Assembly: GCA_023807065.1 (NCBI GenBank)
Contig: JAJJLU010000360.1
Coordinates: 1-64,000 of the forward strand
Direction of reading: 5' to 3'
Length of the DNA stretch: 64,000 nt
Origin: Isotricha intestinalis
Taxonomy: Eukaryota > Ciliophora > Litostomatea > Vestibuliferida > Isotrichidae
Shown here: positions 1 through 16,055 of the stretch, in pieces
Layout: every line of letters begins with the position of its first letter
Numbering within the stretch: position 1 is the stretch's first letter
Position numbers and translations under genes: made by a program
Notes under the pieces: model-generated
The model's input: the letters and a program-made list of their open reading frames with translations, nothing else
The model's database searches: none
What the model was told of the DNA's origin: nothing

Positions 1-117
1 AGATTTTGGATTTATATCAATAATATTATTCCCATTTAATTTCAAATTATTTGTATCTCTACAACTTATACTAAATTTATTATAATTAACATTCCTTTTA
101 TTTCTTTCTGCATTATC
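1..117 (-). repeat. 117-bp exact inverted repeat, copy 1
   Basis: The reverse complement of 1-117 is identical to 5361-5477, base for base by eye. Both copies lie in coding sequence in the same frame (each begins at an Asp codon, GAT). Because it reaches base 1, the repeat may continue outside the window. Confidence 0.95.
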
Positions 118-1197
118 ACTTAAATAAATAACTTCTTCATTATAAATATTATTATTATTCAAAATAATTTTATTATCTAAATTAAGATTATTATGATTAT
201 TAATATTATTATTTTTTCCAATTAACATAATAATTTCATATTTTCCATTAATTTTAATAGCTTCATATTCATTTTTATAACTTTCAATAGTTTTTAAAAT
301 TATTCCATCAATATAAATTAAACCAACTTTTTTATTACAAATTGGACAACAAAATCTACTATTTTTAATTTGCATATAAAAAAAATTTTTTAATTCAAAA
401 CAACTTATATGTTCACATTTCCATCCTCTTGCAGGAACTTCAATTATATCAGTTTTTGATATTGGATCTATAAAATTTATTTTTTCTAAATTGATATTGT
501 AACATTTTGTTAATTGAATTAATATATTTGTATCTTCTATAAATTTTACTTCTTTCATTATTTCTTCTACATTATTTATATATTCTATATAATCTAATGA
601 TATTATGTATTTAGAATATTTTTTTTTTTCAGTTTTTTTAAAATTTATTATTATTTCATTTTCTTCATTTATTTTAAAATAATCAAAAGCTTGACCAATA
701 AATTTTTTAAAATGAATAATTTCTTTCTCAATAGGAAAAATAGGGAAAGCTAATTGTTCATAAATTTGTCTTTTATATTTATCTTTTCTTTGATTAACAC
801 TATAAATAATTTTATTATTATTATTAATATATAAATCAATTTTATCAGGCCATTCAACACAAAAACCTTCTTCAGTTAATTTTAAACATCTTAAAATTAA
901 GAAATTATCTTTATTTGGAGGATCCATATTAAAAATTGAATTTTCTAAATTAAATTTAAATGATTTTAATCCTTGTTCATCATTTTTTATTATTGTTGGA
1001 ATTAAAAAATGAAATTTTATTTTTAAATATGGATCAAATAAAGATAATTGACATAATGGACAAATATATATTTCTGATTTATCCATTGGAGATATACAAT
1101 TTTTATGCTGGTAACATTCACAATTACCACATTTAATTATTTTGTCTTTTTCATATTTTGAATTATTACATGGACAATTTATTAATAATTCTTCCAT
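1..1197 (-). CDS. PIAS/Siz-type SUMO E3 ligase (PHD + SP-RING), 3' end outside window
   Basis: Partial gene: the ATG is at 1197 and the frame stays open for 399 codons to base 1. The N-terminus is a PHD-type finger with C8, C10, C23, C26, H31, C34, C46 and C49 (Cys4-His-Cys3). A PINIT-like stretch follows. An SP-RING lies at about residues 244-300, with DPISKTDIIEVPARGWKCEH, then a Cys and a final CCPICNKK. In the Siz/PIAS family the SP-RING binds the SUMO-charged E2 Ubc9 and promotes sumoylation in the nucleus. PHD next to PINIT and SP-RING recalls plant SIZ1, but no N-terminal SAP domain is seen. After the SP-RING the chain is Asn-rich, and its last 39 visible residues are identical to part of the CDKL-like kinase tail at 5361-5477. 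The family call is firm; the shared tail is the oddity. Confidence 0.88.
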   Translation of the reverse strand, partial: MEELLINCPCNNSKYEKDKIIKCGNCECYQHKNCISPMDKSEIYICPLCQLSLFDPYLKIKFHFLIPTIIKNDEQGLKSFKFNLENSIFNMDPPNKDNFLILRCLKLTEEGFCVEWPDKIDLYINNNNKIIYSVNQRKDKYKRQIYEQLAFPIFPIEKEIIHFKKFIGQAFDYFKINEENEIIINFKKTEKKKYSKYIISLDYIEYINNVEEIMKEVKFIEDTNILIQLTKCYNINLEKINFIDPISKTDIIEVPARGWKCEHISCFELKNFFYMQIKNSRFCCPICNKKVGLIYIDGIILKTIESYKNEYEAIKINGKYEIIMLIGKNNNINNHNNLNLDNKIILNNNNIYNEEVIYLSDNAERNKRNVNYNKFSISCRDTNNLKLNGNNIIDINPKS

Positions 1198-1413
1198 TTG
1201 ACAATTTATTAAATTATTAATAAAAATAATCTTTATAAATAAAAAAATAAAATTTAATAAAAGATTTCATTGAAGAAAAATAAAATTTATTTTTACTCAA
1301 ATATTAATTAAATAAATGTGTATTTAATCTAATAAAAAATAAAAAGAATCAATATTTTTTTTCACACAGAAAAAAAATTATAGAAGAATTTAAAAAATAA
1401 AGTAATTATTAAA

Positions 1414-3075
1414 TTATATTTTACTAGCAAATCTAACCCATTTTCTTCTTCTAACATAATTTCCTTCTTTTTTTTTAACAAAAGAAGAATTAAAATCAGA
1501 AGAATATTCCCAACCATTATCATCAGTATTAATACTTTTTTCAATTTTCCATTCTCCAATCCATTTATATTTATCTTTATTATTATTAGGTAAAAAAACC
1601 ATATTTAAATCACAAAAATTTTTTTTGTCATTTACTTTACACCATAAAGGAATTTCATTTTTAATCATATTTTTTTTCCATCCTACAAGCATCCACCATC
1701 TTTCATTTTCATATATTTCATATTTTAATATTTCATTATTTTCGTTTTTCTTTTCATTTTCTATTTTATTTTTTAAAAGATTATTTCCTGAGGAAAATGA
1801 TATTGAATTTCTTTTCATTGTATTTGCATTTATAGGTGATATATTATTATTATTTTCTAACTGTTCTTGTGATATTGAATGAGATAATGAATATGTTTTA
1901 TTACTATTTTCCATGTTTTCATCAGAAACAAAATTTATTATATTATAAAATGGAATTGTATATGATAAAATTGTTTTTATTGTTGATATGTATATTTTTG
2001 ATTTTTTGGATTTTAATATTGGAGTTATTTTAAAGTTTATTAAGGAAAAAATAAATAATTCAAAAGAATAAAAAGATGGATTGAAACTTAATACTAGAAT
2101 CCACATACAGAATATAAAGATTAATGGTAAATTTAAGTAATTTAATCCTCCCATATAAAAAATTATGAAGTTAAATATAAATATTATAATAATTGATTTG
2201 TATAATTCATAAACAAAATATACATCCCCAATAATAAGTTTATTCACAGTAAATTCATAAAAATCAAATAATCTATTATAATAATCTAATATCATATAAA
2301 ATAAATATGAATTTTCTCCATTTAAAGAATTAGATGATTTTTCAATTAAAAATGATTGAATTTTATCTTTAAATTTTAAATGATAGAAAATAAAACCTAA
2401 AGGCAAAATAAAAACAAAAAAAAATTTAAAATTTAATATTATAAGAGTAAGCATAAATAAATATGATAAAGTTTGCCATTTATTTTCCCATCTAATAACT
2501 TTTTCAACGAAAACTAAAAAAAATTTTAAATATTCTAAATTTTGAATAAATAAACTACATACAGGAATATCATAAATGTTATTATTATTCTTTAATAAAT
2601 CTTTAATTGAAAGAGGAGCACTTTGATTATTTGAATTATTTTCATTATTTTTAATAACATTATCATTATTTTCTTTTTCTAAATTTTCTTTATTATTAAA
2701 TTCAAAATCAAAATATACAATAGCACAATTTTCACCTTTATTATTTTTTAAACCAATTAAATAACTTTTTCCATGAGTTGTTTTTTGTAAATTTTTTTCT
2801 TCTGAAACAGAAGCTTTAAATAAAATATTATCTGGTATTTTTTCATCATATATTTCAAAAATTATTGATTTAAATTTATTCACATTATCTTCTAAATCAT
2901 AATATTGAGATAAAATACATTTATTATCTTTATCAAATTCTAAAATTTGAGTTTTTATCGGATTTGAATTATTAACTTGGAAATATAAGTAATAATTATT
3001 ATTCTTTTCTGGAGTTATTAACATTTTAATCCCAATAATTTGAATTCTATTTTTTATTTCTTTTATTTTTTCCAT
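1414..3075 (-). CDS. Pex30/dysferlin-domain membrane protein
   Basis: 553 aa. The N-terminus (about 1-130) looks like a C2-type beta domain and is followed by an Asn-rich linker. A hydrophobic block at about 170-350 has several membrane segments in hairpin-like pairs, first after a KVIRWENKWQT motif. That motif resembles the amphipathic/TM start of MCTP and Pex30-type reticulon-like regions. The C-terminus (about 455-553) is a peroxin/dysferlin (DysF) domain: NERWWMLVGW, later KWIGEWKI, then RRRKWVR. Pex30/Pex24-type proteins shape ER membrane and act at ER-peroxisome or ER-lipid droplet contacts. By inference this is an ER-shaping protein; an anaerobe might lack peroxisomes, so the peroxisomal part is uncertain. 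It is divergent from the next gene with only 63 bp between starts, which suggests a shared promoter. Confidence 0.7.
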   Translation of the reverse strand: MEKIKEIKNRIQIIGIKMLITPEKNNNYYLYFQVNNSNPIKTQILEFDKDNKCILSQYYDLEDNVNKFKSIIFEIYDEKIPDNILFKASVSEEKNLQKTTHGKSYLIGLKNNKGENCAIVYFDFEFNNKENLEKENNDNVIKNNENNSNNQSAPLSIKDLLKNNNNIYDIPVCSLFIQNLEYLKFFLVFVEKVIRWENKWQTLSYLFMLTLIILNFKFFFVFILPLGFIFYHLKFKDKIQSFLIEKSSNSLNGENSYLFYMILDYYNRLFDFYEFTVNKLIIGDVYFVYELYKSIIIIFIFNFIIFYMGGLNYLNLPLIFIFCMWILVLSFNPSFYSFELFIFSLINFKITPILKSKKSKIYISTIKTILSYTIPFYNIINFVSDENMENSNKTYSLSHSISQEQLENNNNISPINANTMKRNSISFSSGNNLLKNKIENEKKNENNEILKYEIYENERWWMLVGWKKNMIKNEIPLWCKVNDKKNFCDLNMVFLPNNNKDKYKWIGEWKIEKSINTDDNGWEYSSDFNSSFVKKKEGNYVRRRKWVRFASKI

Positions 3076-3138
3076 AATAAATTAATAAATAAAGAATATA
3101 ATTATTGAATTAATAAATAAAATTAATTAAATTCATAA

Positions 3139-4032
3139 ATGAAAAATCGATTAATTAAAAGAACACCATCAAATTATTTTGAAAATGGAAATTCAAATGA
3201 TTCAATAACAACAAAATTTACTTCTGAATTTTCTTCTTGTAATTCAAAATATTTTTCTCCTATTAATTCTTTAAAAAGTTCTTATTCTAATTTTTTTAGT
3301 TCTGATAATAAAAAAAATCAAATTAATTCAAAGAAAAAAAATAAGAAAACTCTTTCAAAAAGCATAACTGATTTAACTAATAAAAAAAATAAAAGTTTAA
3401 AAATTATATCTTATGATTCTTATATAAATAAAGTTAAATCTCCTTCTAAATATGATAATTTGAATTCTTTTCAATTACTTAATAAAATTAAATATGAAAT
3501 TAAAGATAAAATAAAAAGGAATTTAAAAAATAAAAAAAAAAGAAATTTTTCTTTAATTGAGAGTATTAATTATTTAAAAGAAAGTCTCCATAAAGAAAAT
3601 CAAAATTATATTTTTAGTCAAAATAATAAACAAGATATATATAGTTCTACTGAAATATTAAAACAAAATCATCAATTTAATGAAATTGTAAATGATAATA
3701 TTAATTATGAAATTCAATTAATTATAGATGAAAATAATAAAATGGAAAATTTAATTAATAATTTAAATGTTAATACTCAAGAAAAAAATAATTTAATTAA
3801 AGAATTAACTTTTATTTTACAAAAAGCAAAAAATAAATGCTTTGAGTTATCAAATCAAGTAAATAAATTAATTGAAGATAAAAAATATTTAACTTCTTGT
3901 TTATTAGATAAAAAAGATAAAATTTCAAAATTAAAAGAAAAACTATATCAACAAAATTTAAAATCCCATCAAATGGATTCTCACTTAAAATCAATAATAA
4001 TAAAGTTTGAAAATAGTAATTTAACAGAATAA
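3139..4032 (+). CDS. Hypothetical coiled-coil protein
   Basis: 297 aa, not recognised. The first 140 residues are Ser/Asn/Lys-rich and basic, with no clear domain. From about 185 to 285 there is a heptad-like coiled coil (IDENNKMENLINNLN onwards, with regular Leu/Ile spacing). The Ser-rich head plus C-terminal coil is common among cytoskeletal and basal-body proteins of protists, but nothing here fixes a function. It shares a 63-bp divergent promoter region with the DysF gene and lies 131 bp upstream of the CDKL-like kinase on the same strand. Confidence 0.6.
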   Translation: MKNRLIKRTPSNYFENGNSNDSITTKFTSEFSSCNSKYFSPINSLKSSYSNFFSSDNKKNQINSKKKNKKTLSKSITDLTNKKNKSLKIISYDSYINKVKSPSKYDNLNSFQLLNKIKYEIKDKIKRNLKNKKKRNFSLIESINYLKESLHKENQNYIFSQNNKQDIYSSTEILKQNHQFNEIVNDNINYEIQLIIDENNKMENLINNLNVNTQEKNNLIKELTFILQKAKNKCFELSNQVNKLIEDKKYLTSCLLDKKDKISKLKEKLYQQNLKSHQMDSHLKSIIIKFENSNLTE

Positions 4033-4163
4033 AAAAAATAACTTAAAAAAAATATTTTTTTTAGTTTAATTTAAACATATAAATAAAATAATAAACATAT
4101 TTTAAACAAAAAAAAAATTTGAAATTTTAACTAAAAAAAAACTATTAAAAATTAAAAAAAAAA

Positions 4164-6317
4164 ATGCACAAAAAATATGAAATTCTATCAGTAGTAGGAG
4201 AAGGGGCATATGGTATAGTATATAAATGTAGAAATAAAGAAACAAAAGAAATAGTAGCATTAAAGAAATTTAAAGAAACAGATGATGAATTAGTAATAAA
4301 AACAATGAGAAGAGAATTAGAAATGTTAAATAAAATAAAGCATGAAAATATAGTAGAATTTAAAGAATCATTTATCCACAAAAAAAATTTATATTTAGTA
4401 TTTGAATTTGTAGAAAAAAACTTATTAGAACTTCTTCAAGAAACACCTGATGGTTTAAACGAAAATAAAATTAAATATATAATATATCAATTAATAAAAG
4501 CAATAAAATATCTTCATTCACAAAATATAATTCACCGTGATATAAAGCCAGAAAATTTATTAATATCAAAAGATTTAAAATTAAAATTATGTGATTTTGG
4601 ATTTTCTCGAAATGTAATATTAAATGAAGAAAAAGTAAATATATCTCAAATGACGGATTATGTTGCAACAAGATGGTATAGATCTCCTGAATTATTATTA
4701 AATGAAGGTTATTATGGTTTTGAAGTTGATTATTGGAGTATTGGATGTATTATGGGAGAATTAACTGATGGAAATCCTATTTTTCCAGGAGAAGATGAAA
4801 TTGATCAATTAAATTGTATTATTAAAATTTTAGGAAATTTACCTCCAAAGTTAGTTGATTCTTTTAATATTAATAATAATTTTAATCATAAAAAACTCAC
4901 TTTTTGTCATCATCCTTATGGATTATCTAATCTATATTATGGGAAGTTAAGTAATCTTGCTATTGATTTTATGCAAGGGTTACTTCAATTAGATAAGGAA
5001 AAAAGATTAAATGGAGATAATGTTCTAAAACATAAATATTTTCAAGGTTATTTAGATAATCAAAGTGAAGAGATAGAAAAAGAAATGGAAATGGAAATGG
5101 AAACGGAAAATGAAAATGAAAATGATGAAAAGTTATTTATTGAGAGATTTAATCATCATAATTATAAGGAAAATGAGGATATTTCAAATTTTCTTAAGAA
5201 TTATAATGAGAATAATAATAAAATTAATGATGAGAATATATTTCATGAAAACGTTAATGATATAAATAATGATAATAATAAGGATGATATTGTTAATTAT
5301 AATATTAATGATAATATTAAAAATGTAATAAATAATAATGATGCGGATATTTATATTAAAGATAATGCAGAAAGAAATAAAAGGAATGTTAATTATAATA
5401 AATTTAGTATAAGTTGTAGAGATACAAATAATTTGAAATTAAATGGGAATAATATTATTGATATAAATCCAAAATCTTTACTTAAGATTAAGGAGGAAAA
5501 AGAAAAGATGAAAAAAAATATAAATGATAAAAAAGAAAAAATCTTAATTAACGAAGAAAAAAAAGATTATCAAAACCAAATAGAATATATAAAACCAAAA
5601 AAAAATTTATATAAAATAAAACAAGGAAAAGTAGATTTTTCTCCTCCAAAAATAAAAAATCAATCACCTGAGATTCCAAAGAGATATATAACTATAATTA
5701 AAAATAATATAAAATTATCTCAAAATTCAAAAATAACAAATAATCCAGATTCAATAAATAATAAAATAAAACCTTTATTTAAAAATCATAGTAAAAATAA
5801 TATAAATGTAAAATATAATCAAAATTTAAATCAAGTAAGTGAACTTAGAAACAGTCAACCAAATTTAATTTCAATTATGCCAAATGGTCATTTAACAGGG
5901 TTTAATACATATTTAAATCAAAAAAATGATAAATATAATTATCAAATTAAGACTAATTTTAATAACAAAAACAATAATTATAAATTTATTAATAATTTCC
6001 CTATTATAAAAGAAAAAGAAGAATTTAAACAAGAAAATATACACACTAAAAAAATTAAATTAAAAAAAGTTTCTAGTCAAAATAATAAATTATCAATTTA
6101 TTATTTAGGTAATTTTGATCAAAATAAAACAAAAGATAAAATGTTTAAAACCGAAACAGAAAAATTTAATGATAATAAATTTATTTATATTTCACATAAT
6201 GGTAAATCAAAAATAACATTTAAATTACCTCAATTATTTCAATTTTATAAGAATTTATCTGGTAATAATATAATAAAAAAGAATAATAAAGATTTTCAAT
6301 TTAAAAAAATTAATTAG
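4164..6317 (+). CDS. CDKL-family Ser/Thr protein kinase
   Basis: 717 aa. The kinase domain fills residues 1-290: glycine loop GEGAYG at 12-17, VAL-KKF lysine, HRDIKPENLL catalytic loop, DFGFSR, and a TDYVATRWYRSPE activation segment. The T-D-Y lip and CMGC insert are typical of cyclin-dependent-kinase-like kinases (CDKL1-5), which regulate cilium and flagellum length in several lineages. The remaining 420 residues are low complexity (Asn/Lys/Asp, including a Met-Glu repeat near 5085-5105) with no domain. That tail carries the second copy of the 117-bp inverted repeat at residues 400-438. It ends in TAG, 45 bp from the convergent importin-like gene. The kinase call is firm; a ciliary role is inferred from the family. 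Confidence 0.9.
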   Translation: MHKKYEILSVVGEGAYGIVYKCRNKETKEIVALKKFKETDDELVIKTMRRELEMLNKIKHENIVEFKESFIHKKNLYLVFEFVEKNLLELLQETPDGLNENKIKYIIYQLIKAIKYLHSQNIIHRDIKPENLLISKDLKLKLCDFGFSRNVILNEEKVNISQMTDYVATRWYRSPELLLNEGYYGFEVDYWSIGCIMGELTDGNPIFPGEDEIDQLNCIIKILGNLPPKLVDSFNINNNFNHKKLTFCHHPYGLSNLYYGKLSNLAIDFMQGLLQLDKEKRLNGDNVLKHKYFQGYLDNQSEEIEKEMEMEMETENENENDEKLFIERFNHHNYKENEDISNFLKNYNENNNKINDENIFHENVNDINNDNNKDDIVNYNINDNIKNVINNNDADIYIKDNAERNKRNVNYNKFSISCRDTNNLKLNGNNIIDINPKSLLKIKEEKEKMKKNINDKKEKILINEEKKDYQNQIEYIKPKKNLYKIKQGKVDFSPPKIKNQSPEIPKRYITIIKNNIKLSQNSKITNNPDSINNKIKPLFKNHSKNNINVKYNQNLNQVSELRNSQPNLISIMPNGHLTGFNTYLNQKNDKYNYQIKTNFNNKNNNYKFINNFPIIKEKEEFKQENIHTKKIKLKKVSSQNNKLSIYYLGNFDQNKTKDKMFKTETEKFNDNKFIYISHNGKSKITFKLPQLFQFYKNLSGNNIIKKNNKDFQFKKIN
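5361..5477 (+). repeat. 117-bp exact inverted repeat, copy 2
   Basis: Identical to the reverse complement of 1-117. It lies in the low-complexity C-terminal tail of the CDKL-like kinase, residues 400-438. Upstream of the GAT codon the two copies diverge at once at DNA level, although both proteins have an Ile-Tyr pair five and four residues before it. Confidence 0.95.
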
Positions 6318-14834: not shown

Positions 14835-16055
14835 ATGAACTCCCAATATTATGGTCAAATAGAAAATGGAGGATCATCATATGAATCATCCTACAAATCA
14901 AATCCGATAAAAAATCCATCTCAAACATCTCGAATTCAATCATCACATACAGGAAATACATCAAGTAATAACTATGGTCAATATGATAACAATCAAAATT
15001 TCCAAATTTTAAAACGTCCATCGCAGACACCATATAGAGTAAATTCGAATGAAATGTCATTGAATCAATTTAATTATTCTCCAAATCCTAAATCAATAGA
15101 TGATTCAATAAATGATCAAATAGCAAAATTAAGAAATGATGTTAATAGACAATATATGGAAATGAGTAATTTATTAGGAAAATTAAAAATGGATGTTGCT
15201 GAAGCAAATCAAATGAGAAATGAAGCTGAAAGAGAATTACAATATATTAGAGAAGAAGTTATGAAAAGTAAACTGAATAAAATATTATATGAAAATAAAT
15301 TAGGTAAAGTTTTAGAAAAATATGCTCCTTATAATAATTTACATATTAATGTAAAAGATGTTGATCCTTTATATTCTTTACAACATACTAAGAAAGATTT
15401 ACAAAGTACTAGTAATATGATTTATGCTACTGATATGGTTAATGAAGGAAATGTTAATAGAATTAGACAATTAAGTGCTCTTGCTCAAGTTGGACAAAGT
15501 TTAGTTGGAGAAAGTGAATTTATTCCTATTAATGATAATGGCAATGGGTATGGAAATAGAAATAATAATACTTTTAATTTTGTGAATGGTAGTTTTAATA
15601 ATAATATTAATAATAATAGTAATATTAATAATAATAATAGTAATATTTATAATAGTAATATTAGTAATAATAATAATAATATAAATTTTGAAGGAACTTT
15701 TAATCAAGGTAATAATAATAATTCTAAAACTGGATCATTTAATCAGAATTTAAATCAAAGCAATAATAATAATTATAATAATATTAATAATTCTCAAAAT
15801 AATTTAATGCAAAGTAATGAACCTAAAATTTTAGACTCATATATGCAAAAAGGAGATTTTCATGATATGTACAATGATTTAACTGATATTGCTAATATTA
15901 ATCATCAAATGAATCCAGAAAATAAATATAAGAGTTTAAATCATAATTTTGATATTGATTATAATGAAATTTCAAATAGAAATAATAATACTCAAAAACT
16001 TGAAATTGATAAATTAAATAAAATGATGGAAGAAATTGATGGAAAGAATAATTAA
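14835..16055 (+). CDS. Hypothetical coiled-coil protein with poly-Asn tract
   Basis: 406 aa. The first 90 residues are Ser/Asn/Gln-rich. Residues 92-165 form a charged coiled coil (DQIAKLRNDVNRQYMEMSN onwards). A conserved-looking segment follows: YAPYNNLHINVKDVDPLYSL, then LAQVGQSLVGESEFIPI. From 15590 to 15790 the DNA is a run of AAT/AGT triplets coding a poly-Asn/Ser tract. The C-terminus is a short second helix (KLEIDKLNKMMEEIDG). The ESEFIPI end of the central block looks like a real folded or binding motif, but I do not recognise the family. A cytoskeletal or centrosomal role is possible but only guessed. Confidence 0.65.
   Translation: MNSQYYGQIENGGSSYESSYKSNPIKNPSQTSRIQSSHTGNTSSNNYGQYDNNQNFQILKRPSQTPYRVNSNEMSLNQFNYSPNPKSIDDSINDQIAKLRNDVNRQYMEMSNLLGKLKMDVAEANQMRNEAERELQYIREEVMKSKLNKILYENKLGKVLEKYAPYNNLHINVKDVDPLYSLQHTKKDLQSTSNMIYATDMVNEGNVNRIRQLSALAQVGQSLVGESEFIPINDNGNGYGNRNNNTFNFVNGSFNNNINNNSNINNNNSNIYNSNISNNNNNINFEGTFNQGNNNNSKTGSFNQNLNQSNNNNYNNINNSQNNLMQSNEPKILDSYMQKGDFHDMYNDLTDIANINHQMNPENKYKSLNHNFDIDYNEISNRNNNTQKLEIDKLNKMMEEIDGKNN
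15588..15700 (+). repeat. Poly-Asn triplet microsatellite inside a gene
   Basis: Imperfect AAT/AGT/ATT triplets code mainly Asn, Ser and Ile. The tract is in frame and likely variable in length between strains. Confidence 0.75.

Follow-up and report, generated by a model that had tools for sequence, protein, structure and literature searches.

Why should the tails of two unrelated predicted genes, one for a PIAS-like SUMO ligase and one for a protein kinase, be identical base for base in opposite orientation, with one of the two copies beginning at the very end of a contig? The question is raised by the window analysed here, the stretch of 64,000 nucleotides C160:1-64000, in which base 1 is also base 1 of the 70,356-bp contig C160. 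An exact 117-bp inverted repeat read in frame by both genes had been described in an earlier note, and direct comparison bore this out. Reversed and complemented, bases 1-117 reproduce bases 5361-5477 with 0 mismatches, both copies sit inside open frames in the same reading frame (1-1197 on the minus strand and 4164-6317 on the plus strand), and 39 identical residues are encoded by them in the PIAS-like frame and the kinase frame. The features of the locus are listed here with the evidence for each.

1-117, minus strand: copy 1, the final 39 residues of the PIAS-like frame, taken for a chimeric arm (reverse complement of 5361-5477; contig end; tail unshared by PIAS relatives and paralogues)
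115-117, minus strand: the joint, a GAT codon common to the PIAS and kinase sides, a putative 3-nt microhomology (two C1063 alignments end at base 115)
118-1197, minus strand: native part of the PIAS-like (MIZ/SP-RING) gene, truncated at the contig end (zf-MIZ E 3.9e-11; relatives P0001-P0014; paralogues on C1063, C425, C1059 and C648)
331-462, minus strand: MIZ/SP-RING zinc finger, residues 246-289 (Pfam PF02891; coordinates converted by hand)
4164-6317, plus strand: gene for a CDK-like protein kinase whose long tail is rich in Asn (Pkinase E 5.3e-73)
5361-5477, plus strand: copy 2, native kinase-tail segment of 39 residues (same position, flanked on both sides, in the orthologues P0016 and P0017)

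The inverted repeat and its contig

An exact identity of 117 bp is far beyond chance. When the window was simulated 10 times with an order-2 Markov model, the longest exact inverted repeat arising by chance was 20-30 bp, and the 117-bp pair was the sole exact inverted repeat of at least 28 bp in a scan of the 64-kb window. When the 117 bp were searched against the assembly (57.3 Mb in 2,153 contigs), two places were matched, both on C160, and the further genomic copies that the earlier note had thought worth looking for did not appear. At the joint the minus strand at base 118 passes to the plus strand at base 5361, 5.2 kb away, and the second segment is thus in inverted orientation.

The sequence before the repeat diverges, as had been claimed, collinear ungapped identity past the repeat dropping to 64 of 97 positions (118-214 against the reverse complement of 5264-5360). 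Among the 2,056 registers of the kinase gene, for which the mean is 37.4, this one ranks first, and the local same-frame mean is 48.6 (sd 5.3). Throughout the window 64 matches are reached in 5 of 127,206 placements, the other four lying in an Asn-rich tract and starting at 15,560-15,614. Likeness of this kind between the flanking Asn-rich tracts would equally favour an amplification chimera and recombination in the cell, and does not separate the two.

The repeat was also said to reach the window start, which it does, the window start being the physical end of C160. A CCCCAAT-type telomere is present at the right end of the contig and no CCCCAAT telomere was found when the left end was read. 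CCCCAAT repeats begin 16 of the 35 contig starts read, and the available excerpt of PMC11316547 gives this telomere motif for the gut litostome Muniziella cunhai. The G+C content of the window is 16.5%, and of the 23 frames whose stop codons were read, 20 close with TAA, 2 with TAG and 1 with TGA. Given the CCCCAAT telomeres, the G+C content and the stop usage, the window most likely comes from the macronucleus of a gut ciliate, with base 1 of C160 as a broken chromosome end. The left end of another contig, C1200:1-60, is without a CCCCAAT cap and carries GGGGGATTGGGG about 12 bp in, oriented as a right-end telomere would be.

The kinase tail and the PIAS-like tail

The two genes had been named a PHD/SP-RING SUMO ligase and a CDKL-like kinase, names that hold in part: Pfam recovers the zf-MIZ and Pkinase domains, but no PHD family in the PIAS-like frame at E 0.001, the PHD-like Cys/His pattern there having been judged by eye. 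The kinase frame encodes 717 aa (Pkinase E 5.3e-73), and the JGI name "cyclin-dependent kinase-like" is attached to 2 of the 120 relatives listed. In the orthologue P0016 (96%) 38 of the 39 residues of the segment are identical, and in the orthologue P0017 (93%) 33 of 39, each with collinear flanks on both sides. For these two and for the kinase fragment P0015, 0 of 300 shuffled tails reached the observed 39-residue score. The kinases P0019 and P0020, 73% identical over the kinase part, lack the stretch and match it no better than they match shuffled tails. Since the stretch keeps its position and both flanks in P0016 and P0017, copy 2 is, as judged from these orthologues, the genuine kinase tail. 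P0015 itself (280 aa, on a 1,189-bp contig) is a form of this kinase that has lost internal sequence between two GTTAATTATAAT repeats (at 5292 and 5388) and has an altered end.

The frame at 1-1197 encodes 399 aa on the minus strand and runs off the contig end. Its zf-MIZ (SP-RING) match to PF02891 scores 43 bits against a cut-off of 33.5 (E 3.9e-11), and this MIZ/SP-RING finger places the frame in a predicted PIAS-like SUMO ligase gene. A protein search with the frame, from which kinases above 698 aa were excluded by its length limits, returned 15 proteins, namely 14 PIAS-like proteins and the kinase fragment P0015, and among these 15 the 39-residue segment occurs in P0015 alone. In a multiple alignment of P0001-P0005, the four proteins P0002-P0005 extend past the joint with a common [VI]-I-x-L-x-D motif and then continue into different tails, while P0001 is the same at all of residues 1-325 but stops at 327, before the joint, and has no bearing on it. 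Pairwise tail scores were used for P0006-P0014. When the 39-residue tail was scored against all 14 PIAS relatives and all four same-genome paralogues, the observed score was reached by 48-280 of 300 shuffles.

The paralogues, located on C1063, C425, C1059 and C648, were also compared at the DNA level. The closest, on C1063, aligns to window bases 115-1262 at 78%, and a second C1063 alignment likewise ends at window base 115. The PIAS-like frame and this paralogue agree at the codon level through GAT and then part. Because the C1063 sequence stops aligning at base 115, homology is lost where the repeat begins; the 3 nt of GAT shared at the joint are deduced from this paralogue, a relative, and not from the native continuation of the PIAS gene. 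Under lenient DNA scoring the C1059 paralogue could be aligned 43 bases beyond the joint, to window base 75. However, 15 of 87 other kinase-gene segments swapped in for the arm as controls ran as far or farther, and the C1059 extension is therefore no evidence of a shared tail. Matches of other contigs to the body of the PIAS gene did not exceed 78% in the assembly search, those above 78% being short stretches in the Asn-rich region and close to its beginning, and no relative of the PIAS gene was found in the viral contigs scanned. By these comparisons the PIAS copy at 1-117 looks foreign to its gene.

Two of the paralogue loci have features of their own. At C425:1-1300 a PIAS-like paralogue near P0005 has its coding tail cut by a CCCCAAT telomere, so that the frame ends in telomere-encoded residues; this gene end is either a de novo telomere addition within the gene or another end artefact. 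At C1063:1801-4100, downstream of the PIAS-like paralogue, another frame in the same direction appears, on visual inspection, to open with a similar Cys/His-rich stretch, which suggests that the neighbouring frames are a tandem family.

Contig ends across the assembly

Nineteen telomere-less left ends, 10 scanned over 3 kb and 9 over 10 kb, were searched for a repeat of the terminus in inverted orientation elsewhere on the contig, and one was found in 3 of the 19: C160, C200 and C2153. The arm of C160 is exact over 117 bp. The fold-back of C200, whose right end also carries a CCCCAAT telomere, is exact over 71 bp and 96% identical over 109 bp, with its partner at 279-387. That of C2153 is exact over 26 bp at bases 21-46, up to the end of the fetched piece, and 96% identical over 46 bp from base 1, with its partner at 2975-3020. 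The arms of C200 and C2153 are inexact and may represent another kind of event. No exact inverted repeat of at least 26 bp without a contig-end arm was found within any single fetched locus of at least 2.3 kb.

In addition, 18 right ends and 9 left ends were run as joined queries against the whole assembly, with the best 40 candidates scored for each query. Among those best 40 candidates none of the 27 ends recurred exactly or almost exactly, in inverted form, on the contig it belongs to; C159 had an inverted copy at 88%, 23.6 kb away on its own contig. In a hand count of the rows among the same best 40 candidates, 13 of the 27 ends (C131, C132, C133, C139, C157, C161, C163, C500, C648, C1000, C1059, C1063 and C1200) matched another contig over 100 query bases or more with an identity of 92% or higher. 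C132 shares its terminal 141 bp exactly with C1033, C1200 overlaps bases 1-141 of C1330 through its last 142 bp with a single indel, and 117 bp at the end of C1000 have a copy inside C165 with one indel. C133 matches C1511 over 231 bp at 97.8%, and C131 matches C143 over 178 bp at 94.9%. Contig ends in this assembly are thus often bound by repeats, and stopping in a true repeat is also normal, so that the argument from contig-end position alone is weakened. C139 repeats its left 300 bp exactly, in direct orientation, at C139:14518-14817 (a match of at least 300 bp, about 14.5 kb off), and over 260 bp the same left end is 98.5% identical to the right end of C418.

Origin of the joint

The 117-bp mirror is very probably a fold-back chimera at a broken contig end, made in DNA amplification or assembly and not by biology. 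Among the readings that the earlier note had offered, a fold-back chimera at a contig end is thus the one that gains, from the contig-end position, the native kinase copy and the foreign-looking PIAS tail, while a mobile segment and a shared functional motif lose ground. The event would have taken place in whole-genome amplification, most likely phi29 multiple displacement amplification (MDA) of one or a few ciliate cells, or in library making. A strand copied through the PIAS gene up to the GAT codon would have annealed by its 3' end to the displaced kinase strand some 5.2 kb off on the same molecule, the partly complementary Asn-rich tracts aiding this annealing, and would then have been extended on the kinase strand. 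The assembler would have tracked the chimeric reads for 117 bp beyond the joint before breaking off, so that the telomere-less end of C160 carries a fold-back. The amplification method, the priming step and the absence of the joint from the molecules of the cell are inferred. The start of the repeat at base 1 of the contig, together with a right end that is telomeric and a left end that is not, counts for an artefact. Against it count the 3 nt of deduced microhomology, fewer than the published peak of 6, and the distance of 5.2 kb, far from the published 250-300 nt.

Recent gene conversion, or a short inverted duplication, would have copied the kinase-tail segment over the end of the PIAS gene, with the contig stopping inside the copy. 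The two genes lie close together, both have Asn-rich tails, the reading frame stays open across the joint, and other contig ends also lie in sequence with copies elsewhere. The flanks also match better in this register than elsewhere, and such likeness would promote recombination in the cell just as readily. This origin is nevertheless unlikely, as the contig end would have to fall inside the copy, presumably a small target in 70 kb, and such a tail is carried by 0 of the 14 PIAS relatives found and 0 of the four paralogues.

It is quite improbable that part of the macronuclear copies carry a real PIAS-kinase fold-back joint, whether as a somatic palindrome or through template-switch repair at a broken end. 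If it were true, the joint would make an in-frame fusion tail and replace the normal chromosome end, and fold-back joining of chromosome ends would take place in a ciliate macronucleus. The specific form in which some copies of the macronuclear chromosome end in a large palindrome, an extension to the left mirroring the sequence from 5361 to the right telomere, is highly improbable. Its inverted geometry and the lack of a left telomere in the contig fit, and in some ciliates the rDNA is known to form palindromic molecules in the macronucleus. The rDNA chromosomes are alike in having an inverted joint at a chromosome end, but C160 shows only 117 bp of mirror, in protein genes, and a joint without independent support. 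A new cellular process would also be required where a known laboratory artefact suffices. A narrow literature search found nothing on palindromic or fold-back inverted duplication in ciliate macronuclei, which is weak evidence either way.

A pure artefact of the assembly graph, in which a k-mer overlap or a wrong path at a repeat produced the joint and no chimeric molecules existed, has very little probability. The 141 bp exact between C132 and C1033 and the 141-142 bp with one indel between C1200 and C1330 do look like k-mer overlaps, but 117 bp differs from 141, the remaining two fold-backs have arms of 109 and 46 bp, and a graph path would normally need reads that hold the joint. A fixed k-mer overlap as the sole cause is disfavoured by these varying arm lengths (117, 109 and 46 bp) despite the C132 overlap. 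The mobile coding segment is rejected, with both of its places in 57.3 Mb on C160 and no unrelated loci, and so is the shared functional motif, the kinase relatives P0019 and P0020, the 14 PIAS relatives and the four paralogues all matching the tail no better than shuffled tails.

If the mirror is the chimera preferred here, the predicted PIAS-like protein of C160 would bear a false 39-residue tail identical to the kinase tail. A few other contig ends show similar signs, and telomere-less fold-back ends should be trimmed before gene prediction.

In the available excerpt of PMC10838670, 69 single-cell amplified genomes of ruminal ciliates are described and MDA is named as the step employed, and the present assembly is presumably one of these. 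From one E. coli cell, 406 of 475 MDA chimeras were inverted, the inverted segments tended to lie less than 10 kb apart, and complementarity of at least 2 bp and up to 21 was seen at 76.8% of chimera joints, according to the excerpt available of Lasken and Stockwell 2007 (PMC1855051). That of PMC4595205 puts about 70% of MDA chimeras between reverse strands, at distances from 0 to more than 5,000 nt, 250-300 nt being most probable, and with overlap lengths peaking at 6 nt. The C160 joint falls inside the ranges given in these excerpts and off both peaks (5.2 kb; 3 nt as deduced). It resembles the inverted MDA chimeras of PMC1855051 and PMC4595205, as far as these are described there, in being inverted, in joining segments less than 10 kb apart, in a putative short shared sequence at the joint and in copying the second template exactly; it differs in being a contig end and not a read, in that the putative shared sequence, deduced from paralogues, is only 3 nt long, and in spanning a distance longer than 250-300 nt.
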